From Asanoa sp. WMMD1127 (lineage in GTDB: Bacteria; Actinomycetota; Actinomycetes; Mycobacteriales; Micromonosporaceae): a stretch of 64,000 nt of DNA. The position numbers and the translations under genes were made by a program. Positions 7,451 to 19,461 of the stretch are shown here, one piece after another. Numbering within the stretch: the first letter of the stretch is position 1; each line of letters begins with the position of its first letter. Below the pieces are notes generated by a model. The model ran no database searches and had not been told where the DNA came from. It saw nothing but the letters and a program-made list of their open reading frames with translations. The stretch is from the NCBI RefSeq assembly GCF_029626225.1, contig NZ_JARUBP010000001.1, positions 3,038,001 to 3,102,000 of the forward strand, read 5' to 3'.

Positions 7451-7489
7451 TCCAGCGACGGCACAGCGTACGGGTAAATGATGGGTGTC

Positions 7490-8191
7490 ATGGCCGCACC
7501 ACAGACCGAGGCGAGACTGCTCGTCGTCGAAGACGACCCCAACATCCTCGAGCTGCTCTCCGCCAGTTTGAAGTTCGCCGGGTTCGAGGTGAGCACGGCG
7601 ACCAGCGGCAGCTCCGCCGTCAGCGCGGCCAAGGACCGCCGGCCCGATCTGGTCGTGCTCGACGTGATGCTGCCGGACCTCGACGGCTTCGAGGTGATAA
7701 GGCTGATGCGCGAGGGCGGCACGCGTACGCCCGTCGTGTTCCTGACCGCCCGCGACGCCACCGACGACAAGATCCGCGGCCTGACGCTCGGTGGCGACGA
7801 CTACGTCACCAAGCCGTTCAGCCTCGAGGAGCTGACCGCCCGCATCCGCGCCGTGCTGCGCCGCACCTCCGCCGGCGACCAGAGCGCCTCCCGGCTCACC
7901 TTCGCCGACCTGGAGCTCGACGAGGAGACCCACGAGGTCTACCGCGCCGGCCAGCGGGTCCAGCTGTCGCCGACGGAGTTCAAGCTGCTGCGCTACCTGA
8001 TGCTCAACGCCAACCGGGTGCTGTCCAAGGCGCAGATCCTCGACCACGTGTGGAACTACGACTTCCGCGGCGACGACAACATCGTGGAGAGCTACATCTC
8101 CTACCTGCGCCGCAAGATCGACAATGGCCAGCCCCGGCTGATCCACACCCTGCGTGGGGTCGGCTACGTCCTTCGTAAGCCAGCGGCCTGA
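7490..8191 (+). CDS. OmpR/PhoP-type response regulator
   Basis: 233-residue response regulator. The receiver domain (residues about 8-120) has the acidic pair VVEDD, phospho-acceptor Asp58 in VVLDVMLPDLDGFE and Lys108 in DDYVTKPFSLEEL. The C-terminal winged helix runs about 140-230 (SPTEFKLLRYLM, VESYISYLRRKID, HTLRGVGYVLR). The sequence is most like mycobacterial PhoP/TcrX regulators. Three in-frame ATGs exist (7478, 7481, 7490); 7490 is chosen because MAAPQTEARLLVVEDD starts close to the domain, and no Shine-Dalgarno decides it. It is first in an operon with the kinase (11 bp gap) and HtrA. It is phosphorylated by that kinase by inference from synteny. Confidence 0.92.
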   Translation: MAAPQTEARLLVVEDDPNILELLSASLKFAGFEVSTATSGSSAVSAAKDRRPDLVVLDVMLPDLDGFEVIRLMREGGTRTPVVFLTARDATDDKIRGLTLGGDDYVTKPFSLEELTARIRAVLRRTSAGDQSASRLTFADLELDEETHEVYRAGQRVQLSPTEFKLLRYLMLNANRVLSKAQILDHVWNYDFRGDDNIVESYISYLRRKIDNGQPRLIHTLRGVGYVLRKPAA

Positions 8192-8202: not shown

Positions 8203-9846
8203 ATGTTGGCTCCCCTGCGCGGCACCCCGCTGCGCGTCAAGCTCGTCGCCGCGGTGTTGGCGCTGGTGACGGCCGCCCTGCTCGTGATCGGGGCGGCCAG
8301 CACGTTCTTCCTGCGCAACTACCTGCTCGACCAGGTCGACGGCAACCTGCGCAGCCTCAACAACAACGTGCAGGCGCTGCTCCGCGACAACATCCAGTTC
8401 GCCGTCGGCGACAACGCGTTCGCCGTGGCGTCCACCCCGGCGCAGCCCACGCTCAACGACCTGAGCAGCCGGCCGGGCCAGCTGTTCACGCCGGACGGGC
8501 CGGACCTGCCGCAGAACTACACCGGCCTGCAGGAGTCGCTGCGGCAGCACCACAACGACCCCTACACGGTCAAGGCGATCGGCAGCCAGGTCCGCTGGCG
8601 CGTGCTGGTCGTGCAGCCGCAGGACAGCACCGCGATCGTGGCCGTCGGCTTCAACCTCTCCGACGTGGACCACACCGTCAAACAGCTGCTCTGGATCGAC
8701 GGCCTGGCCGGCGGCACGGTGCTGATCGTGCTGGCCACCCTCGGGGCGGCGATAGTCCGCAGCAACCTCAAACCGTTGCGGCAGATCGAGCGCACGACGG
8801 TGGCGATCGCGGCCGGCGACCTGAGCCAGCGTGTTCCCGACCCCGAACCCGGCGCCGAGGAGCCCAAGACCGAGCTCGGTCGGCTGTCCCGCGCGCTCAA
8901 CGCGATGCTCACCCAGATCGAGACCGCGTTCGCCGCCCGGGCCGAGTCCGAGGCCGCCGCCCGCGACGCGGCGTTCTCCGCCCAGGCGTCGGAGGCGCGG
9001 GCGTTGCGCTCCGAGGAGCGGATGCGGCAGTTCGTCGCCGACGCCTCCCACGAGCTGCGTACGCCGCTGACCACCATCCGTGGCTTCGCCGAGCTCTACC
9101 GGCAGGGCGCCGCGGCGGGGTCGCCGGAAGACACCGCACGGCTGGTCCGTCGCATCGAGGACGAGGCGGCCAGGATGGGCCTTCTCGTGGAAGACCTCCT
9201 CCTGCTGGCCCGCCTCGACCGGGAACGACCGCTCTCGCTGTCGCCGGTCGAGCTGCGGGTGCTGGCCAGCGAGGCGGTGCAGGCGGCGCAGGCGATGGCG
9301 CCCGACCGCGAGATCGCGATCGAGGTGGCGCCGCGGGCCGGGCTGCTGGTGGTGCGGGCCGACGACGCCCGGCTCCGCCAGGTGCTGGGCAACCTGCTGA
9401 CCAACGCGATCATCCACACGCCACTGGACGCGCAGATCACCGTCCGGCTTCGCTCCGACGGCGACTCGGCGATCGTCGAGGTGGTCGACACCGGCCAGGG
9501 TCTCCCGCCCGAGCAGGCCGAACGCGTCTTCGAGCGGTTCTACCGGGCGGACGCCGCGCGCCGGCGCGACCGCGAGGCCACCAGCACCGGGCTGGGGCTG
9601 GCGATCGTGGCCGCGCTCGTGCGAGCGCACGGCGGGACGGTCGAAGTGGACACCGTGCCGGGGCAGGGCTCGACGTTCCGCGTCCGGCTGCCGCTGGCCG
9701 GCGGCGACGACGTGGCCGGCGGGGACGACGTGGCCGGCGGGGACGACGAACAGGAGGACCCGGGCCCGGGCGCCAACGGGAACGGGCACTCTCAGACAAC
9801 GCTCAGCCCGGCCCCAGGCCGGTCGCAGAGCGGTGGGGAAAGGTAA
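8203..9846 (+). CDS. Sensor histidine kinase (HAMP-HisKA-HATPase)
   Basis: 547-residue membrane kinase. TM1 lies at about residues 10-33. An extracytoplasmic sensor of about 130 residues follows, then TM2 near 167-187 and a HAMP linker (SNLKPLRQIERTTVAIAAGDLSQ). The HisKA domain has His283 in DASHELRTPLTTIRG. The ATPase domain has the N box (LGNLLTNAIIH), G1 (VVDTGQGLP), F box (FERFYRAD) and G2 (TGLGLAI). The tail after residue 499 holds three 6-residue repeats rich in Gly/Asp. It partners the regulator encoded upstream. The extracytoplasmic loop has no recognisable domain, so the signal is unknown. The stop is 5 bp before the HtrA start, which suggests joint expression. Confidence 0.92.
   Translation: MLAPLRGTPLRVKLVAAVLALVTAALLVIGAASTFFLRNYLLDQVDGNLRSLNNNVQALLRDNIQFAVGDNAFAVASTPAQPTLNDLSSRPGQLFTPDGPDLPQNYTGLQESLRQHHNDPYTVKAIGSQVRWRVLVVQPQDSTAIVAVGFNLSDVDHTVKQLLWIDGLAGGTVLIVLATLGAAIVRSNLKPLRQIERTTVAIAAGDLSQRVPDPEPGAEEPKTELGRLSRALNAMLTQIETAFAARAESEAAARDAAFSAQASEARALRSEERMRQFVADASHELRTPLTTIRGFAELYRQGAAAGSPEDTARLVRRIEDEAARMGLLVEDLLLLARLDRERPLSLSPVELRVLASEAVQAAQAMAPDREIAIEVAPRAGLLVVRADDARLRQVLGNLLTNAIIHTPLDAQITVRLRSDGDSAIVEVVDTGQGLPPEQAERVFERFYRADAARRRDREATSTGLGLAIVAALVRAHGGTVEVDTVPGQGSTFRVRLPLAGGDDVAGGDDVAGGDDEQEDPGPGANGNGHSQTTLSPAPGRSQSGGER
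9700..9753 (+). repeat. Three tandem 18-bp repeats in kinase 3' end
   Basis: Units 9700-9717, 9718-9735 and 9736-9753 encode GGDDVA, GGDDVA and GGDDEQ. The first two differ at one base. They lengthen the acidic tail in frame, and copy number could vary by slippage. Confidence 0.8.
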
Positions 9847-9851
9847 ATGTC

Positions 9852-11363
9852 ATGACCGAGCACGAAAGCGACCCCCGGCGCGATCCCGAGCGGGGCACCG
9901 AGCCGGGCGCCGGGACCGCGCCCGCCGCGGGCGCCGCCGCCGGTGCCGAGCAGCCGACGGAGCAGCAGCCGCGCCCGTACGGCGCCGACCAGCCGACCGC
10001 GCAGCAACCCACCCTCCCCACCGAGTCCCAGCCGGTCAGCGGCGCGCACGCGGAGCAGCCGCGCAGCCCGTGGCAGCCGGCCGCGCAGCAGCCGCCGCAA
10101 TATCCGCAGGCCGGCTCCGGCTACCCGCACTACACCTACCCGGGCTACGGGCAGGGCGGTTACGCCGGCACCCACCAGCAGCAGCACGGCACGCCGATCC
10201 CGTGGGCCGGTGGCGGCCCGGGCGGTCCGCCGGCGGGCCCGCCATGGCAGCAGCACGTGCCGAGTCCCGGCGATCCGCGGCGGCCCAACAAGGTCGGCCG
10301 CTGGATCGCCGCGGCCGCGGTGGCGCTGGTCCTGCTGCTCGGCGCCGGCCTGGTCGGCGGCGTGATCGGCGCGGCCCTCAACGGCAACGACGCCGACAAC
10401 GCGCGGGCCCGGGCGGCCGCCGCGCCGGTGGTCAACCGGTCCTCGCTGGCCGAGATCGCGCAGAAGGTGGAGCCGAGCATCGTCTCGATCACCACCGGCA
10501 GCGGCGAGGGCTCGGGCGTGGTGCTCACCGACGACGGCTACGTGCTGACCAACAACCACGTCGTGGCCAGCGCGAGCGGCAACAGCGTGACCGTGGTCTT
10601 CGACAACGGCAAGCGCGCCAGCGCCACCATCGTCGGCACCGACCCCAAGAGCGACCTGGCCGTCGTCAAGGCGTCCGGCGTCTCGGGCCTGAGCGCGGCG
10701 AAGTTCGGCGACAGCGCGGCCGTGCAGGTCGGTGACACCGTGCTCGCCCTGGGCAGCCCGCTCGGCCTGCAGGGCTCGGTGACCGCCGGCATCATCAGCG
10801 CCAAGGACCGCACGATCCGCACGCAGTCCGAGCAGGACCAGCAGCCGAACCCGTTCGGCGGCAACCCCAACCAGCAGCCGACCGCCACGTCGCTGTCGGG
10901 CCTGCTGCAGACCGACGCGCCGATCAACCCGGGCAACTCCGGTGGCGCTCTGGTCAACACCAACGGCGAGGTGATCGGCATCAACACCGCGATCGCCACG
11001 TCGGGGCAGGGCAACGGCAGCATCGGCGTCGGCTTCGCGATCCCGAGCGCCAAGGCCGAGCAGGTCGCGCAGGCACTGCGCAACGGCGAGAAGGTCTCCC
11101 ACGCCGCGCTCGGCGTGCAGGTCACCGAGACCGAGAACGGCCAAGGCGCCCTGGTCGGCGCCGTCACCCCGAACAGCGCGGCCGCCAAGGCCGGGCTGCA
11201 GCAGGGCGACGTCATCACCAACTTCGGCGGCGAGGCGATCAACACCTCCGACGAGCTGGTGGCCGCGGTGCAGTCGCACAAGGTCGGTGACCAGGTGCAG
11301 CTGACCTACACGCGAAACGGATCCGGAAACACCGCAACCGTGACGCTCACCGAAGCGTCTTAA
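9852..11363 (+). CDS. HtrA/DegP-type membrane-anchored serine protease with PDZ domain
   Basis: 503-residue trypsin-like protease. The first 150 residues are a cytoplasmic, Pro/Gln/Gly-rich, disordered region, followed by one TM (about 151-176). The protease domain lies outside, with catalytic His236 (NNHVVA), Asp268 (DPKSDLAVVK) and Ser363 (INPGNSGGALVN). A single PDZ domain covers about 405-500 (AALGVQVTE, GLQQGDVITNFGGEAI). The architecture matches mycobacterial PepD/HtrA. Family role: envelope protein quality control under stress. The start is 5 bp after the kinase stop, giving the order regulator-kinase-protease seen in mprA-mprB-pepD. Likely regulation by the adjacent two-component system is inference. 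A strong terminator follows at 11426. Confidence 0.92.
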   Translation: MTEHESDPRRDPERGTEPGAGTAPAAGAAAGAEQPTEQQPRPYGADQPTAQQPTLPTESQPVSGAHAEQPRSPWQPAAQQPPQYPQAGSGYPHYTYPGYGQGGYAGTHQQQHGTPIPWAGGGPGGPPAGPPWQQHVPSPGDPRRPNKVGRWIAAAAVALVLLLGAGLVGGVIGAALNGNDADNARARAAAAPVVNRSSLAEIAQKVEPSIVSITTGSGEGSGVVLTDDGYVLTNNHVVASASGNSVTVVFDNGKRASATIVGTDPKSDLAVVKASGVSGLSAAKFGDSAAVQVGDTVLALGSPLGLQGSVTAGIISAKDRTIRTQSEQDQQPNPFGGNPNQQPTATSLSGLLQTDAPINPGNSGGALVNTNGEVIGINTAIATSGQGNGSIGVGFAIPSAKAEQVAQALRNGEKVSHAALGVQVTETENGQGALVGAVTPNSAAAKAGLQQGDVITNFGGEAINTSDELVAAVQSHKVGDQVQLTYTRNGSGNTATVTLTEAS

Positions 11364-11614: not shown

Positions 11615-14600
11615 GTGACGGTCGTCGAGACCCGGGTGAGTGTGTGGGAGGCGCTGGCCGGGCGGGCGCCCGGGCAGCCGGTGGGCCCGCACGACCCCGG
11701 CATGTGGGCGGCCGTCGTCGAGCGACTCAATCCGGCGCGGGCGCGGCCCGTGCGGCGCGCGGGCATCGAGCAGGTCGACCTGGTCTCGGTGCGGGGCGTT
11801 CCCTACGTGATGCTCCGCTCGCCCGACGACCGCGGCGGCGCCTGCTACCTGCGGCTCACGCCCGAGGAGTGGCAGCTTGCCACGTTGATGGACGGCTCGC
11901 GTACGGTCGCCCGACTGGTCGCGGAGTTCGCCCGGATCGGCGGCCGGCTCGCCCCTGACCAGGTCACCCGGGTGGTCGCCGATCTCGCCGCCAACCGGAT
12001 GCTGGCCGAGCTGCCGGTCGACGCGTTCCTGCCGCTGCGCAACGTGCGGCGGCGACCCTGGCCGGTCCGGATCGGCCGCACGCTGCTGGCGTTCGCGCAG
12101 GGCCGGCGCACCGTGGTCGCCGACATCGACCCGCTGGTGGGCTTCCTCTACCGGGCCGGCGGCCGGCTGCTGTTCCACAAGGCCGTCGTCGCGCTGCTCG
12201 GCGTCGTCGCCCTGGCCGGCCTGCTCGCGTTCGGCTGGACCTGGTGGCACGGCGAAGAGTCGATCTTCCTGACCGGCGGCTCGTACGCGACCGGAGCGGC
12301 CGTCCTGCTCGGCCTCAATGTGCTCGCTCTGGCCTGCCACGAACTCGGCCACGCGCTGGCCACCAAGCACGCCGGTCGGCGGGTGCCGGCCGCCGGCTTC
12401 CTCGTCTACTTCGGCATCCCGTCCGTCTTCGTCGACACGACGGACGTGTGGATGGCCGGCCGGCGCGCCCGGATGACCACCACCGCCGCCGGCCCGGCCA
12501 CCGGGCTCGTCCTGGCCGGCGTCGCCGGGCTCGTCGGCGTGTTCGTGCCCGAGGCCGCGCCGTGGACGTTCAAGCTCGCCTTCGCCTGGTACCTCAACGC
12601 GCTGTTCAACCTCAACCCGTTCCTCGCGCTCGACGGCTACTACCTGCTGATGGACTGGCTCGAGATCCCCAACCTGCGCGCCCGGGGGCTCACCTACGTC
12701 GTCAGCCGGCTGCGCCGCCGCCCGCCGCGCTGGTCCGAACTGGACCGCGAAGGCCGGCTGGTCGCGCTTTACGGCACCGTCGCCGTCCTGTGGATCGCCA
12801 TCGCGGTCAACCTGGGCTGGCGCATCTGGACCGACCGGGTCGCGGGCCTCACGATCGGCCTGTGGCGGTCGGGCTGGCCGGCCCGGCTCCTGCTCGTCGC
12901 CGTGGTCTGCGGACTCGCGGCGCCCCTGGTCTACCTGGCGTTCAGCTGGCTCGCCGCCCGGGTCCGGGCACTGCGGCGGCGGCTCGCCCAGCGCCGCCAC
13001 GACCTCGACATGCCCCGGCGGCTCGACGCCCTGCGGGCCTCGGCCCTCGGCCGGCTCTCCGGCGCCGCGCTCGCCGACCTCGCCGCGGCCGCCACCTGGG
13101 TCCGCCCGCGCACCGGTCAGCCGCTGGTCTTCGCCGGCGCCGCCCAACGCGCCGTCTACGTCGTCGTCGACGGTGCGGTGGAGGCGCGCCGGCCCGACGA
13201 CCCGTCGGGCCTCGTCCGCCAGCGACTCGGCGCCGGCGGCGTGGTCGGCCTGGCCAGCGCGTTGAGCGGGGCGCCGGCCGCGCTGTCCTGGCACACCGCC
13301 GGGACCACCCTGCTGTCGCTGCCGCCGTCGGCGGTGTCGCGGGCGATCGGCCCGGTGCCGGGGCCGCCGCCGGCCGAGTGGGACGAGGCGGACCGGCTGT
13401 TCGCCGAGGCGCCCGCCCTGCAGTCGCTGAGCGCCGAGGACCGGATGGGGCTCGTGTCGGCCGCCCGGCCGGTGCTGCTCGCGCCGGGCGAGCCGGTGCT
13501 GCTCAACGGCGCCACGGACGCGGTGGTCATCGAGTCGGGCAGCGTGGTGCTGCCGGACGGGGTCGAGCTGCGCCGCGGCACTCTGATCGGGCCGATCGGC
13601 GACGGGCCGGGCGGCGTCGTGGCGTCCGCGCGGACCCCTACGCGCCTGTGGTCGGTGCCCGCGCTGCCTGGCGTACCCCTGCTGCTCGGCGCCGATCCCA
13701 GCGTGGTCGCGTCGGCGGCCGGCGCGCGCCCCGCGGCCGGCGTGCACCCGACCGGCGGCTACCCGCCGCTGGCGGCGCCGCCGGGGCCGCCGCCGGTGAT
13801 CGACGAGACCGTCGACGGCCGTTTCGAGCGCCGGCTGTGGTGGCTGGTCGCCCTGCTCCTGCTGCTCGCGCTGCTGCTCACGGCGACCAACTTCATCCCC
13901 GGGCCGGCCTGGGCCGAGATGCCCGCCGACCGCGCCCTGCTGTCGACCACCCGGGGCACGGCCGAGGTGTCGGTCGACGGCCGGCCGGTGCGGCTGACCT
14001 CCGGCGACAAGGTGTACGTGACCGAGGGCGACCAGGTCCGCCTGCGCGACCGGTCGGCGGCGACGCTGACCTTCCGCGGCGGCTCCGTCACGGTGCTCTG
14101 CGCGGGCAGCGGGATCGTGATCGGTCCTCTGTGGAGCGAGGGAGGGCGGCGCACCGAGCCGCACGGAACGCTGCGGTTGGCCGACGGGCGGGTGCTGGTC
14201 GACACAGCCAGCACGCGGAGCACGTTCCGGCCGCTGGATCTCTCGCTGGAGGTCCTCGGGCTGCGACTGAACAACGAGGGGGCGGCCTGGTACTGGGCCA
14301 ACGCCGTCGGCACGAGCGTTGTCTCGACGGGAACGGTGCGGGTCGACGGGCAGCTCCAGCCGGCCACGGACGAAGCGCTCGACTGCGGTGACGGTCGCGA
14401 GGTGCCCCGGCCGGCCGGGCCGACCGAGGAGCCGGTGCCGAGCGAGGAGCCGACCCCGTCCGAGCTGCCGTCCCCGACGGTCACGCCGAGCCCGACCCCG
14501 ACACCGCCGGCCGACGAGGACGATGACGACGACAACGGCGGCGACCCGCCGGCGAACCCGCCGCCGGGCGGCAATCCTCCGGGCGGGAACCCACCCGGCG

Positions 14601-15025
14601 GCAATCCGACGACCAGGCCGCCGACAAGTCCGCCGACGTCGCCGCCGGACGACAACGACCCGCCGGAGATCACCTGGGTGACCGACCCCGGCGGCACCAT
14701 CGACCAGCAGATCGGCGGCGAGGGATCCTGCGGCAACAACCGCACGGAGGCCTTCCCGGTGGTCGCGGTCAGCGACGACAAGGACCCTGATCAGGTCATT
14801 AAGGTCACGGTCTCGTGGTCCGGCTTCGCATCCGGCAGCGATGCCATGTCGTGGGACGGCAACTTCTACGGCCGTATCGGCCCGGTGCCCTACTCCGGCG
14901 AGCCGAACACCGGTGGCGCCTTGTCGATCAGGGTGACCGCGACCGACTCCGAGGGCGAGAGCAGCTCGATCTCCGGCACCGACGTGACCGTTGCGGGGTG
15001 CCGCTTCCAGGAACCACCCACCTAA
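11615..15025 (+). CDS. Large M50 metalloprotease-like membrane protein with PqqD-like, cNMP-like and FecR-like regions
   Basis: 1,136 residues. Parts in order: a PqqD-like winged-helix region (about 50-130; CYLRLTPEEWQLATLMDG); membrane segments from about 190; zinc motif HELGH at 242-246 and a second metal-site motif NPFLALDGYYLL (Asp340), as in M50 site-2 and YydH-type peptidases. Two degenerate cyclic-nucleotide-binding-like folds follow at about 485-600 and 605-700. A TM lies near 742-762, then a FecR-like beta domain (about 770-850), a Pro/Thr/Asp-rich linker, and a C-terminal Ig-like domain (about 1015-1130) probably outside the cell. GTG 11615 has GGGGAGG upstream. No ABC or HlyD exporter partner is nearby. 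It is followed at once by the zinc-finger gene, whose ribosome site overlaps this stop. A peptide-processing or signalling role is inference. Confidence 0.75.
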   Translation: MTVVETRVSVWEALAGRAPGQPVGPHDPGMWAAVVERLNPARARPVRRAGIEQVDLVSVRGVPYVMLRSPDDRGGACYLRLTPEEWQLATLMDGSRTVARLVAEFARIGGRLAPDQVTRVVADLAANRMLAELPVDAFLPLRNVRRRPWPVRIGRTLLAFAQGRRTVVADIDPLVGFLYRAGGRLLFHKAVVALLGVVALAGLLAFGWTWWHGEESIFLTGGSYATGAAVLLGLNVLALACHELGHALATKHAGRRVPAAGFLVYFGIPSVFVDTTDVWMAGRRARMTTTAAGPATGLVLAGVAGLVGVFVPEAAPWTFKLAFAWYLNALFNLNPFLALDGYYLLMDWLEIPNLRARGLTYVVSRLRRRPPRWSELDREGRLVALYGTVAVLWIAIAVNLGWRIWTDRVAGLTIGLWRSGWPARLLLVAVVCGLAAPLVYLAFSWLAARVRALRRRLAQRRHDLDMPRRLDALRASALGRLSGAALADLAAAATWVRPRTGQPLVFAGAAQRAVYVVVDGAVEARRPDDPSGLVRQRLGAGGVVGLASALSGAPAALSWHTAGTTLLSLPPSAVSRAIGPVPGPPPAEWDEADRLFAEAPALQSLSAEDRMGLVSAARPVLLAPGEPVLLNGATDAVVIESGSVVLPDGVELRRGTLIGPIGDGPGGVVASARTPTRLWSVPALPGVPLLLGADPSVVASAAGARPAAGVHPTGGYPPLAAPPGPPPVIDETVDGRFERRLWWLVALLLLLALLLTATNFIPGPAWAEMPADRALLSTTRGTAEVSVDGRPVRLTSGDKVYVTEGDQVRLRDRSAATLTFRGGSVTVLCAGSGIVIGPLWSEGGRRTEPHGTLRLADGRVLVDTASTRSTFRPLDLSLEVLGLRLNNEGAAWYWANAVGTSVVSTGTVRVDGQLQPATDEALDCGDGREVPRPAGPTEEPVPSEEPTPSELPSPTVTPSPTPTPPADEDDDDDNGGDPPANPPPGGNPPGGNPPGGNPTTRPPTSPPTSPPDDNDPPEITWVTDPGGTIDQQIGGEGSCGNNRTEAFPVVAVSDDKDPDQVIKVTVSWSGFASGSDAMSWDGNFYGRIGPVPYSGEPNTGGALSIRVTATDSEGESSSISGTDVTVAGCRFQEPPT

Positions 15026-15034
15026 GGAGATCTG

Positions 15035-15250
15035 GTGCTCTGTTGGTTTTGTCCTAAGGCGGCGCGGGGGTCGTGCCGGTTCTGCGGGCGCGGGGTCTGC
15101 GAGGACCACGCGCGGTTCGGGCCATTCCTACTGGAGGTGCACCGGTCCGAGACCCGCAACCGGGCCGAGGGTCTGGTCGTCGAGGACGCCGTGCAGTGCG
15201 GCACCTGCCGGCCGCGACCTCAGCCGGTGCCGATGCCCGAGCTCGACTGA
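15035..15250 (+). CDS. Small Cys-rich zinc-finger-like protein
   Basis: 71-residue protein with paired cysteines: C3-x2-C6, C14-x2-C17, C22 followed by EDH, and C55-x2-C58. This is a plausible two-zinc, B-box or FYVE-like treble-clef pattern. No other domain is present and I do not recognise a named family. GTG 15035 is supported by AAGGAG at 15024-15029, which overlaps the TAA of the M50-like gene. Expression therefore looks tied to that gene. It may be a protein-binding adaptor in the same system; this is inference from position. Confidence 0.65.
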   Translation: MLCWFCPKAARGSCRFCGRGVCEDHARFGPFLLEVHRSETRNRAEGLVVEDAVQCGTCRPRPQPVPMPELD

Positions 15251-15292
15251 CGGGGCTACGGTAGGAGCGCCATCGATGGGGAGGGGCCGGCG

Positions 15293-16099
15293 ATGAGTGA
15301 CTTCGACGAGGTGCTGGAACGACTGGTCGTGGACCCGGCGTTCGCCAGCGCCCTGGCGTCCGACCCGGGGCTGGCGCTGGCCAGCTACTCGCTGAGCGAC
15401 GACGAGGTGGCGCTCCTGCACACCCAGGTCGGCGGCGCGCCGGCCACCGAGCACGCGGTGGAGACTCGGGCCAACCAGTCCAGCACGTTCGGCCTGCTCG
15501 GCTCGCTGGGCGGGATCCTCATCGACGGGCCGATGGCGGGCGGCTCGGGCGTCGGCCACGCGGCGACCTCCGGGTTCGACTCGGTGGGCGGATCGTCGGG
15601 GATGGGACCGGCCGGTTACGACGGCTTCGGGCCCTACGCCCAGGCCGAGGGCAGCCACGGTGGGATGGGCGGCCTGTCGGGCTTCGGCGACGAGATCGGC
15701 GCGGGCCTGCGCGACACGGCGCCGGCCGGCACCGACGCGATGGGTCCGGCGCCGACCGCCGCCGGTCTCGGTCCCGCCCCGGTCGAGGGCACGACCGGCC
15801 TGGGCGCGGCGCCGGCGGAACCGTTGAGCACCGCGCCGCCGGCGGGCTACCACACGCGGGTCGACGTCGACGGTGACGGCGACTGGGACAAGCACGTCCT
15901 GCTGGGCCGCGGCGACGGCGGCGTCGACATCCTGGTCGACAACAACCGCGACGGCCGGGTCGACTTCGTCGGCCACGACACCGACGCCGACGGCCTGGTC
16001 AATTCGGCCGACTACGACAAGGACGGCGACGGCGTCTTCGAGAAGACGATGTACGACGACAACGGCGACGGCTGGATGGACCGCACCGTCAACCATTAG
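15293..16099 (+). CDS. Acidic protein with short helical leader, Gly-rich middle and Asp-repeat (Ca-binding-like) C-terminus
   Basis: 268 residues. The first 45 form a compact helical segment ([20 protein letters not shown], then [20 protein letters not shown]) like the short LigA-subunit-type helical domain sometimes found as a leader. Residues about 50-185 are Gly/Ala/Pro-rich and low complexity. Residues about 186-268 contain repeated Asp-rich loops ([47 protein letters not shown]), as in EF-hand/dockerin or thrombospondin-3 calcium loops. No signal peptide is visible, so export, if any, would need a special route. It is third in the M50-like locus (42 bp after the zinc-finger gene). Its stop overlaps the convergent response-regulator stop by 4 bp. 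It may be the substrate of the M50 protein; untested. Confidence 0.7.
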
Positions 16100-16746: not shown

Positions 16747-18044
16747 CGCCACGGCAGTTCCGCCCGCAGCAGCGTCGGCCCGCCGGCCGGGCTGGACAGC
16801 CGGGTGGTGCCGCCGACCGCCGCGACCCGGTCGGCGAGCCCGGTCAGCCCGCTGCCGTCGCCCGGTGCGGCGCCGCCGTGGCCGTTGTCGCTGATCTCGA
16901 CGACCAGCGTCCGGCCGGACCGCGCCGCCGAGACGGTCACCGCCGACGCCCCGCTGTGTTTGGCCACGTTGGCCAGTGCCTCGGCCACCACGAAGTACGC
17001 GGTTGACTCGACGTGCTCCGGCGGCCGCTCCGGTAGGTCCATCTCGACCGTCACCGGAATGGTCGACTGGTCGGCCAGCTCGCCCACCGCCGCGGCGAGG
17101 CCGCTGTCGGTCAGCACCTGGGGGTGGATGCCCCGGATCAGCTCCCGGAGCTCCGCCATGAGCTGCTTGGCCTGGCCGTGCGCCACGGCGACGCTGCGCC
17201 CGGCCGGGCTGTCCGGTGGCAGGTCGAGTTGGGCCACACCGAGCTGCAGGGTCAGGCTGACCAGGCGCTGCTGCGCGCCGTCGTGCAGGTCGCGCTCGAT
17301 CCGCCGCCGCTCGGCGCCGAACCCGTCGACCAGCCGGGCCCGCGAGCTGACCACCTCGGCCAGCCGGTGCTTGGCCTGCTCGTCCGCGCCGCCGAGCAGC
17401 ACCCGGGCCAGTGCGCCGTGCGCACCGGCGACGGCGCCCAGGAGGTACGGGACCCCGGGCAGCAGGACCAGCCCCAGCAGGGCGTACGGCAGCGCCTCGG
17501 TCGGTGTGTCGACCGCCGCCCGGCCCATCGTGATCGGGTCGCCGGCGCTGACCAGGAACGGGCTGGAGACCAGCGCCACGATGGTCAGCACGCCGATGCC
17601 GGCCGCGAAGTAGACGAGTGGCACCAGCGAGCCCAGCGCGAAGCCGTAGACGACCGCGCGCCAGGTCGCGCCGTCGGTGTAGCGGTCGCGCAGCCAGCGG
17701 AACCACTGACCGGGCGCCGGCGGCGGCAGGCCGGGCAGCGGCCGGTCGTCGACCAGGCGCAGCCGGTACCGCTCGATCGCCGCGAGCAGCACCGCGCTGA
17801 CCGGCGCGACCGTGGCGAGCAGGAACGTGCCGGAGCAGACCAGCAGCGCCAGTTGCGGGCCGGACAGGTGGACGCTGTGCCGGACGAGCCGGTCGGCGGC
17901 GACCACCCAGGGCAGCGCGACGGTGCCGAACACCACGGTCGCGACGAAGCCGACCGGAGCGGTGGTGAGCAGGTAGCCCAGCGCCCGCCAGGGCCAAGCG
18001 GTCAGCAGGTATCTCTTGGCGGCGAGGGCACGCAACGCGGTCAT
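16743..18044 (-). CDS. DesK/NarX-type sensor histidine kinase
   Basis: About 433 residues. Five to six membrane segments occupy the first 230 residues ([34 protein letters not shown] and others). A HisKA_3 domain follows with the phospho-acceptor in [20 protein letters not shown], then a HATPase domain ([36 protein letters not shown]). The ATG at 18044 ([14 protein letters not shown]) is preferred because it begins just before the first helix. An in-frame ATG at 18116 would place the regulatory repeats inside the gene. Neither has a clear Shine-Dalgarno. It pairs with the overlapping NarL-type regulator. The signal is probably membrane or envelope state by family analogy. Confidence 0.88.
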
Positions 18045-18092
18045 GCCGAAGACGTTATTGATCGCCGCCACCGAACCCCATACCCCTGCCGA

Positions 18093-18110
18093 TAGTCCTC
18101 GGGTAGTCCT
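18093..18110 (-). promoter_or_regulatory. TAGTCCT direct repeats upstream of two-component pair
   Basis: TAGTCCT occurs at 18093-18099 and 18104-18110, 11 bp apart, on one face of the helix. They lie about 50-65 bp before the kinase start at 18044. Such spaced heptamers fit binding by a NarL-type dimer. Autoregulation is inferred. Confidence 0.4.
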
Positions 18111-18186
18111 AGGCATACACGTCCGAGATTGCCCTGGCGTCGATGGTCATCGACGTTCCACCATGGCGGGTGGGAGGTGTTGGACA

Positions 18187-19461
18187 GTGGTGGCCATCGG
18201 CACGGAGGAGCTGACCAAGGTATTCGACGACGGGACCGTCGCGGTCGACCAGGTCAGCCTGGTCGCCGGGTCCGGGGAGTTCCTCGTGCTGCTCGGGCCG
18301 ACCGGGTGCGGCAAGTCGACGATCCTGCGGCTGGTCGCGGGGCTCGAGGCGCCGACCAGCGGGCACGTGCGGATCGACGACCGGGTGGTCGACGACGTGC
18401 CGTCCCGCGAGCGCCGGCTGGCGATGGTCTTCCAGGACTACGCGCTCTATCCCCACCTGACCGTCGCCCAGAACATCGGCTTCCCGCTGAAGGTCCGGCA
18501 CGAGCCGCCGACCGACGTCTCGACCCGGGTCGGCGAGGTCGCCGAGCAGCTCGGCATCACGGGCCTGCTGCGCAAGCTGCCCGGCGCGCTCTCCGGTGGC
18601 GAGCGGCAGCGGGTCGCCATGGCCCGCGCGATCGTCCGCCAGCCGCAGGGCTTCCTGCTCGACGAACCACTGTCCAACCTGGACGCCGGGCTGCGGGCCG
18701 AGCTCCGCTCCGACGTGGCCGCGCTGGCCCGGCGGCTCGGCGTGACCACCCTCTACGTCACGCACGACCAGACCGAGGCGATGACCATGGCCGACCGGGT
18801 CGCGGTGCTCCGCCGCGGCGTGCTGCAGCAGGTCGGCCCGCCGTCGGAGGTTTACAACGACCCGGCGACCCTGTTCGTGGCCGCGTTCCTCGGCACACCG
18901 CGCACCCGGCTGCTGGAGGGCGCGGTCTACGCCGACGGCGACCGGGTGGTGATCGACCTCGGCTCCCAGGTGGTCGAGCTGCCGGGCGACCATCCGGTGC
19001 GGGAGCGCCACACCGACCGGGTCACGGTCGCGCTGCGGGCCGACGCGCTCAGCCCCGCGCCGGCCGGGCACGCCGGGCCAACGCTGTCGGGCACCGTGCG
19101 CCAGGTCGAGAATCTCGGTCACGAGGCGCTGGTCCACGTCGACACCGGCGCCCTGCCCACCTCGACCGAGCAGTCGAGGCTCGAGCTGCCGGGGCCGCGG
19201 GCCGCCGCGCTGATGCGAGAGGCGCCCCGGCCGGCGGCGGCGCGCACGGAATACGGCTTCTACCCGGCGTACGACCCGGAGCTGCCCGGCGAGCCGCCGC
19301 CGGTGGGCGAGGTGGTGGTGCGGATGCCGGCGGCCGGACTGCCGCGCCGCGACGAGCCGCTGCGGCTCGCCGTCGACCCCGACCGGCTGCTGCTGTTCGA
19401 CCGGGCCGGGGCGCGGATCCGGCTACCCGCCGCCGGGAAGGCCGGCCAGCGCCAGGTCTAG
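18187..19461 (+). CDS. Orphan MsiK/MalK-like sugar ABC transporter ATPase
   Basis: 424-residue ATPase of the carbohydrate-uptake (CUT1) type. Motifs: Walker A GPTGCGKST, Q loop VFQDYALYPHL, signature LSGGERQRVAMARA, Walker B GFLLDEPLSNLD, H loop YVTHDQTEAMTMADR. The regulatory OB domain covers about 240-330 and resumes near the end. An unusual stretch of about 50 residues (around 330-385) lengthens it beyond the usual 370-380. GTG 18187 has GGGAGGTG upstream. No permease or binding protein is in the window. In streptomycetes one MsiK ATPase serves several sugar importers, and that role would fit here. The 3' end overlaps the convergent kinase gene by 39 bp. Confidence 0.88.
   Translation: MVAIGTEELTKVFDDGTVAVDQVSLVAGSGEFLVLLGPTGCGKSTILRLVAGLEAPTSGHVRIDDRVVDDVPSRERRLAMVFQDYALYPHLTVAQNIGFPLKVRHEPPTDVSTRVGEVAEQLGITGLLRKLPGALSGGERQRVAMARAIVRQPQGFLLDEPLSNLDAGLRAELRSDVAALARRLGVTTLYVTHDQTEAMTMADRVAVLRRGVLQQVGPPSEVYNDPATLFVAAFLGTPRTRLLEGAVYADGDRVVIDLGSQVVELPGDHPVRERHTDRVTVALRADALSPAPAGHAGPTLSGTVRQVENLGHEALVHVDTGALPTSTEQSRLELPGPRAAALMREAPRPAAARTEYGFYPAYDPELPGEPPPVGEVVVRMPAAGLPRRDEPLRLAVDPDRLLLFDRAGARIRLPAAGKAGQRQV

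Follow-up and report, generated by a model that had tools for sequence, protein, structure and literature searches.

What does a giant membrane protease homologue do beside a small cysteine-rich protein and a protein that ends in aspartate repeats? The question is raised by three adjacent genes in a 64,000-nucleotide stretch of Asanoa sp. WMMD1127 (contig positions 3,038,001 to 3,102,000; this whole stretch is the window, and all coordinates are window positions), in which an earlier note had seen a possible processing or signalling system. We propose, with a probability of about 0.52, that the genes encode a system in which a leader guides the proteolytic maturation of a full-size protein, with cleavage by the protease as its predicted step. 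That the genes are kept together and that the active site has often decayed in one leaderless lineage suggests that the protease matures the Asp-repeat protein. We class the cassette as an enzyme resembling the RRE-M50 leader peptidases, paired with a full-size protein that bears an NHLP leader; its features, including tandem cyclic nucleotide-binding (CNB) folds and a transmembrane (TM) helix, are as follows.

11615..15025, + strand, RRE-M50-CNB giant, GTG start, stop included, 1,136 residues (NCBIfam matches and AlphaFold model)
11747..11992, + strand, RRE/PqqD-like domain, residues 45–126 (hhalign, RRE model matches, AlphaFold model)
12338..12352, + strand, HELGH motif, residues 242–246, within a long helix, 224–252 (alignment, AlphaFold model)
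12629..12637, + strand, LDG motif, residues 339–341 (alignment)
13022..13714, + strand, tandem CNB folds, residues ~470–700 (AlphaFold model, Foldseek, alignment)
13805..13888, + strand, single long helix, residues 731–758, taken as a TM helix (AlphaFold model, sequence)
13934..14344, + strand, beta-rich domain, residues 774–910, FecR-like by eye only (AlphaFold model)
14666..14992, + strand, C-terminal beta domain, residues 1018–1126 (AlphaFold model; weak Big_ (Ig-like) matches in a few relatives)
15035..15250, + strand, zinc protein, GTG start, 71 residues (eight invariant Cys/His in the alignment)
15293..16099, + strand, NHLP-leader Asp-repeat protein, 268 residues (NCBIfam leader match, relatives)
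15293..15517, + strand, NHLP-type leader (residues ~1–48) and conserved stretch (~56–70) (NF038399 match, alignment)
15845..16096, + strand, Asp-repeat cargo domain with five DxDxDG loops (sequence, relatives)

The three genes share the + strand, with gaps of 9 bp and 42 bp, and GGAG precedes the zinc gene start; the row described earlier is real and conserved in relatives. The nearest named relatives are Asanoa species (Micromonosporaceae), with 93–95% identity across the N-terminal part of the M50 protein in a scan of named records. The best NCBIfam model for the giant, daptide_HExxH (NF041824; E 1.7e-35), scored 122.9 bits, below its cut-off of 300, followed by YydH/LiaK (NF058609; E 3.1e-10) with 40.1 bits against a cut-off of 225, over residues 231–352. 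In an AlphaFold model built from a 49-row alignment (pLDDT 83.6), residues 45–126 form three strands and then three helices, and hhalign with ten PqqD-family proteins of related genomes gave 96.3% (E 1.8e-9) versus 0.3% in a control comparison. Alignment and model thus confirm an RRE/PqqD fold for the N-terminal domain, as the earlier note had supposed, despite the lack of a Pfam PqqD match in the window giant at E ≤ 1; 4 of 49 relatives do match (best E 7.2e-5). The ApyI RRE model matched the giant at E 5.6e-4, far under its cut-off, and the RRE profile found PaaA in the PDB at E 0.0034. Designed beta-trefoils scored above PaaA and were taken as composition noise.

Alignment and model also confirm the predicted M50 or site-2 protease (S2P) core, with HExxH in a membrane helix and a distal LDG aspartate, for which proteolytic activity is predicted. 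E243, D340 and G341 are invariant in the 49-row alignment and H242 and H246 are conserved at 90% or more; in M50 proteases this Asp is the third metal ligand. The Pfam M50 model (PF02163) gave the window giant 16.1 bits, below the gathering score of 27.2, and matched 41 of 49 relatives at E ≤ 0.1. The two degenerate cNMP-like folds noted before are confirmed as CNB folds: tandem CNB structures, led by PKA regulatory subunits, were the top Foldseek matches (E 7e-12), and the FGE...R-A phosphate-binding cassette is absent from the window CNBs and from seven main-group rows shown. Of two outer domains that had been named, the beta-rich one is modelled well, but FecR as its settled identity was not upheld (Pfam PF04773 matched 1/49 relatives, at E 0.042, and 0/21 genomes); the model also has a final beta domain, set off by a low-confidence linker, for which the Ig-like matches are weak. 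A stop-free antisense open reading frame (ORF) spans the giant and was rejected, as relatives conserve the + strand reading instead.

The helical N-terminus of the Asp-repeat protein is recognizable, from sequence matches, as an NHLP-like leader. Residues 3–42 match the Os1348-type NHLP model NF038399 (E 1.3e-7) with 31.5 bits against a cut-off of 40, and the leader matches the Franean1_4349 family PF14407 with 17.3 against 48, both below; the NHLP protein encoded beside the M50 in a metagenome-assembled genome (MAG) of the Frankiaceae (L210) passes the NF038399 cut-off with 46.2 bits. Among the 16 PDB sequences that a 29-row leader profile found at E ≤ 1 (0.01 to 0.8), 14 were nitrile hydratase alpha and one was an NHLP chimera. 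Behind the leader, 50 of 53 orthologues carry VExRxx[QK][SA]S, followed, by eye, by a short hydrophobic Gly-rich run and then a variable number of Gly-Phe-Gly repeats (none in one of the 14 orthologues shown). The 53 orthologues span 222–613 amino acids and average 4.5 DxDxDG loops. The calcium-loop repeats reported earlier are recovered as calcium-type loops by pattern; a TSP_3 match in a distant relative (E 5.4e-4) is below cut-off. Leaderless proteins of 136–216 amino acids consisting almost entirely of DxDxDG loops (MSDDYDVNVDVDGDG...), with no obvious signal peptide by eye, occur in L128–L133 and L138 (L138:7579-8097).

Among the three proteins, conservation is highest in the zinc protein. 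C3, C6, C14, C17, C22, H25, C55 and C58 are invariant across 25 rows (mean column identity 89%), and no Pfam or NCBIfam family was matched at cut-off, with C5HCH, DUF2180 and AN1 matches all below. Its model reaches a pLDDT of only 75; the best Foldseek match was the C5HCH domain of NSD3 (E 0.098), with cross-brace and B-box fingers weaker. It is a near-constant scaffold partner and likely a protein- or peptide-binding adaptor. PDB sequence matches of this protein were judged not credible, and a 101-residue ORF at 14991-15296 was rejected as the zinc gene, being in another reading frame than the true gene (15035-15250).

Conservation within the family links the leader to the protease. M50 orthologues at E ≤ 1e-20 occur in 105 of 200 Micromonosporaceae genomes (85 in the main clade, 20 at 31–38% identity), and we took in the neighbourhoods of 80 main-clade and 16 distant matches, leaving aside G002, G025, G033, G121, G154 and G197 of the main clade and five distant matches. 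The zinc gene is present in 73 of the 80 main-clade loci and the NHLP/Asp gene in 53, with order and strand kept, so that the full three-gene order, the co-occurrence of which had been named beforehand as the point to check, is found in 53/80. With the whole Asp-repeat protein as query, 190/200 genomes match, many of the weaker listed matches covering the Asp-loop end alone; since this domain is common, we used the leader profile to count co-occurrence. This profile (E ≤ 1e-6) matches 81/200 genomes, 79 of which also have an RRE-M50 (the other two are weak matches); 26/200 have an RRE-M50 and no NHLP leader and 93/200 have neither, and the Fisher test applied to this co-occurrence ignores kinship. 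Whole-genome leader searches scored the best first-look candidates only (150 in one, 29 in the other).

The second line of evidence is the fate of the active site after leader loss. We built a 110-row tree without the motif columns, in which four rows have an unknown leader state, and set L058 aside from the decay test, its leader gene being on another contig. HExxH and the Asp are intact in 60/60 leader-positive rows and lost in 22/46 leader-negative rows, with decayed motifs that include HELAR, REYAR, REWAR, YELGH and QEFGH. All 22 HExxH losses fall within one 36-row clade of the Actinoplanes group; if the site cannot be regained, these amount to four losses (branch-length p = 0.039). Of 23 leaderless genomes searched in full, 22 have no NHLP match at E ≤ 0.01 with 150 candidates scored, and one has a marginal match (8.5e-4). 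In the largest dead subclade, 14/17 loci have a leaderless Asp-repeat gene 15–18 bp after the zinc stop, with no space for a leader, and these genes carry WSEFG near their start, which by eye resembles the post-leader sequence elsewhere. In a simple reading, the protease becomes dispensable once its product is made mature from the start. In the leaderless loci L092 and L103, the position expected for the Asp-repeat gene, downstream of the zinc gene, is taken by opposite-strand thioredoxin-like and MerR-like genes; L221, too, has a thioredoxin-fold gene nearby.

The pairing of a PqqD-bearing M50 protein with a leader-bearing substrate in a processing system thus draws support from co-conservation and weaker support from the decay of the active site in one leader-loss lineage; the earlier proposal is partly supported, with FecR unproven and the cut moved. 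Neither outcome that the earlier note gave as refuting it occurred: the three-gene order is conserved and a PqqD-like fold is present. In the maturation system that we propose, the NHLP domain would bring the Asp-repeat protein to the cytoplasmic side of the giant, and the M50 core would cut in or just after VExRxxQSSxFG and the short hydrophobic Gly-rich stretch. The likely site, judged from the conserved residues, is ~56–75 rather than 40–55 as previously suggested. The cut would free the calcium-loop cargo for whatever destination it may have, with the zinc protein as the likely protein- or peptide-binding adaptor and the CNB pair and outer beta-domains in a likely regulatory role.

Several observations weigh against this proposal. 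Under the default parsimony count there are two losses (p = 0.18), which makes the decay test borderline; independent pairs are too few for a pairwise test; and three other leaderless clades (6, 4 and 1 rows) keep HExxH. The RRE is equally conserved without a leader (mean identity 82.7 and 89.0%) and with one (81.9 and 89.2%), and therefore cannot serve this leader alone; the zinc protein may be what it binds. Neither a signal peptide nor a dedicated exporter is apparent for the cargo. Outside the family, the HExxH is intact in 13/13 far M50 proteins, an argument against tying catalysis to the leader in every lineage, and the only NHLP match in the far stretches is weak and on the other strand (L219, E 1.6e-4). 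Since the far M50 proteins keep HExxH without a convincing NHLP gene, they must act on something else in those genomes.

The far loci were found with the zinc-protein profile, which matches 15/197 other genomes of the phylum; of 16 far zinc loci, 13 hold an M50 match, mostly directly beside the zinc gene (~1.8 kb away in L220). In four out-of-family MAG loci the M50 and zinc genes adjoin, and three of these have NHLP genes upstream of the pair, whose products carry VEQRTSKS or a close variant of it and a different, acidic-looking cargo. The zinc protein and M50 are probably a wide, older pair, with the NHLP cargo as a partner in some lineages. A broader claim, which we advance tentatively, is that this is an undescribed maturation system of Actinomycetota, composed of an RRE-M50-CNB scaffold and a near-constant, new 71-residue zinc partner, in which several lineages would have recruited NHLP leaders for both the delivery and the cleavage of full-size proteins whose cargo is interchangeable (calcium-loop, acidic or Gly-zipper-tailed); once the leader is deleted, the cargo would be made mature and the protease could die while the scaffold persists.

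The best surviving alternative depends in part on the genes upstream of the cassette, which with a downstream ATPase are the neighbours of interest.

7478..8191, + strand, OmpR-like response regulator, a syntenic neighbour set outside the system
8203..9846, + strand, histidine kinase, a syntenic neighbour
9852..11363, + strand, HtrA-type serine protease, a syntenic neighbour
18016..19461, ABC ATPase with a TOBE_2 domain (Pfam scan)

The M50 protein might instead be a signalling S2P in regulated intramembrane proteolysis, which would sense its substrate, a different membrane protein, by means of its outer beta-domains and CNB pair, the NHLP protein being a regulator or bystander. The 13 of 16 far loci in which an intact-HExxH M50 stands alongside the zinc gene, without a convincing NHLP gene, favour this, as does the conservation of the RRE after leader loss. 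The canonical phosphate-binding cassette is present in the first CNB of 6/6 far proteins shown. Some of the listed far loci also fit signalling proteolysis: L221, L222, L225 and L229 have an upstream signal-peptide- or TM-looking protein (234–266 amino acids; Pfam matched neither of the two scanned) and a Crp/Fnr-type regulator downstream, and L223 has a CHASE2-cyclase upstream of the M50-zinc pair. Within the family, the OmpR-type regulator, histidine kinase and HtrA genes are kept upstream in most loci (HtrA ~1 to 9 kb from M50), and response regulator and HtrA genes are within reach in 71/80. However, in Micromonosporaceae an NHLP leader almost always implies an RRE-M50, the HExxH losses seen all fall in the leaderless clade, and none of the four MAG loci was found to have the HtrA or two-component genes next to the cassette (L202 has little upstream sequence), for which reason we set them aside as core parts. 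We regard signalling proteolysis as doubtful for this cassette.

A true pathway for ribosomally synthesized and post-translationally modified peptides (RiPPs), in which enzymes encoded outside the cassette, guided by the leader, would modify the Gly-Phe-Gly repeat or the Asp-rich region ahead of the M50 cut, seems improbable. NHLP leaders and RREs are RiPP hallmarks (excerpts of PMC2887384 and PMC10036551), the Gly-Phe-Gly repeats vary in number among orthologues, and a HemK/PrmB-type N5-glutamine methyltransferase gene lies between the NHLP and M50 genes in L210 (L210:6014-6973) and, by eye, in L208, where it is the gene before M50. Against this, the cassette has no modifying enzyme, the orthologues are 222–613 residues long and the Asp domain also occurs leaderless. 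The nine flanking genes scanned with Pfam in five leader-positive loci included no classical RiPP enzyme; they encode ABC ATPases, BON, a glycosyltransferase, an FGGY kinase, an acyl-CoA oxidase and unknowns. PrmC-like genes also occur near the far M50 loci L222 and L229. Synteny alone, with three unrelated genes held together by slow rearrangement just as the response regulator, histidine kinase and HtrA genes are kept nearby in most family loci, is highly improbable and already disfavoured, given that the set recurs in other families with different flanks and with NHLP genes on the other side, and that a Zn-ribbon-like start is fused to the M50 protein in distant relatives.

RiPP-type leader recognition is usually viewed as a small-peptide matter, and RseP/SpoIVFB-type S2Ps carry an HExxH...LDG core in membrane helices. 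The giant shares that core and differs from them in its RRE and CNB domains and in having a leader-bearing partner rather than an anti-sigma factor. Its best curated match is the daptide protease MpaP/DapP (NF041824), which likewise combines an RRE with an M50 intramembrane core; the giant adds the CNB pair, the TM helix and outer domains, and is paired with a large protein that bears an NHLP-type leader. Excerpts of PMC10036551 credit the RRE-dependent intramembrane peptidase MpaP with daptide leader removal. Among the window genes scanned between 5989 and 19481, a subset of the ORFs, the daptide set (oxidative decarboxylase, aminotransferase and methyltransferase) was not found. According to excerpts of PMC10885120, the precursors of epipeptides and pearlins are cut by M50 proteases, and EpeP is thought to cut and export EpeX. 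The M50 core at residues 231–352 is shared with the epipeptide protease YydH/LiaK/EpeP (NF058609), but the score is below cut-off and the window genes scanned include no epipeptide precursor or epimerase. Another S2P-like HExxH protease, TmcP (DUF3267), acts on a membrane RiPP leader in TMcins (excerpts of PMC13252029); unlike in the giant's system, its precursor is a TM peptide, and RRE and NHLP have 0 matches in the available text of that paper. The Asp-repeat protein shares its N-terminal leader with NHLP-type RiPP precursors (Os1348, NF038399; Franean1_4349, PF14407) and departs from them in its cargo, a 200-residue Asp-repeat protein, and in a cassette without a modifying enzyme; such leaders are long, structured and recognized as proteins (excerpts of PMC12455567). 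The parts of open-licence PMC papers available to us hold no description of a large protein cargo, the zinc partner or the three-gene cassette. If the maturation system is real, an NHLP leader and RRE-M50 handling proteins of 222–613 residues would extend RiPP leader logic to ordinary proteins, supply a testable substrate for an RRE-M50 protease group without one, and assign a role to a zinc protein that is nearly invariant yet below all Pfam and NCBIfam cut-offs; the leader-loss lineage offers a ready-made natural control.

Further from the cassette, the window genes scanned encode PadR, the response regulator and histidine kinase, HtrA, a second histidine kinase and response regulator on the opposite strand, and the ABC ATPase. 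An ABC ATPase gene also lies some way downstream of the cassette in L037, L048 and L068 (3/5 leader-positive loci listed); we do not read it as an exporter. A scan for promoters and terminators found none, and a PHROGs search returned nothing useful. The relatives at 31–38% identity have a different architecture: the M50 protein starts, by eye, with a Zn-ribbon-like stretch in 8/8 loci shown, and three proteins scanned have FHA above and PqqD below cut-off. The NHLP gene is present in 13/16 of these loci (there is none in L114, a 4-kb contig, L126 or L127), several of the NHLP proteins having, by eye, TSP3-like loops and a hydrophobic C-terminus rich in Gly. In 4/8 loci shown a kinase-like gene comes next, Pfam-confirmed in one. 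In L112–L125 (for example, L117:9422-12786), one protein joins the Zn-ribbon-like start, FHA, PqqD-like and M50 parts near NHLP-leader genes, often with a Ser/Thr kinase gene in the loci shown, an arrangement that reads as a phospho-linked second variant of this principle.

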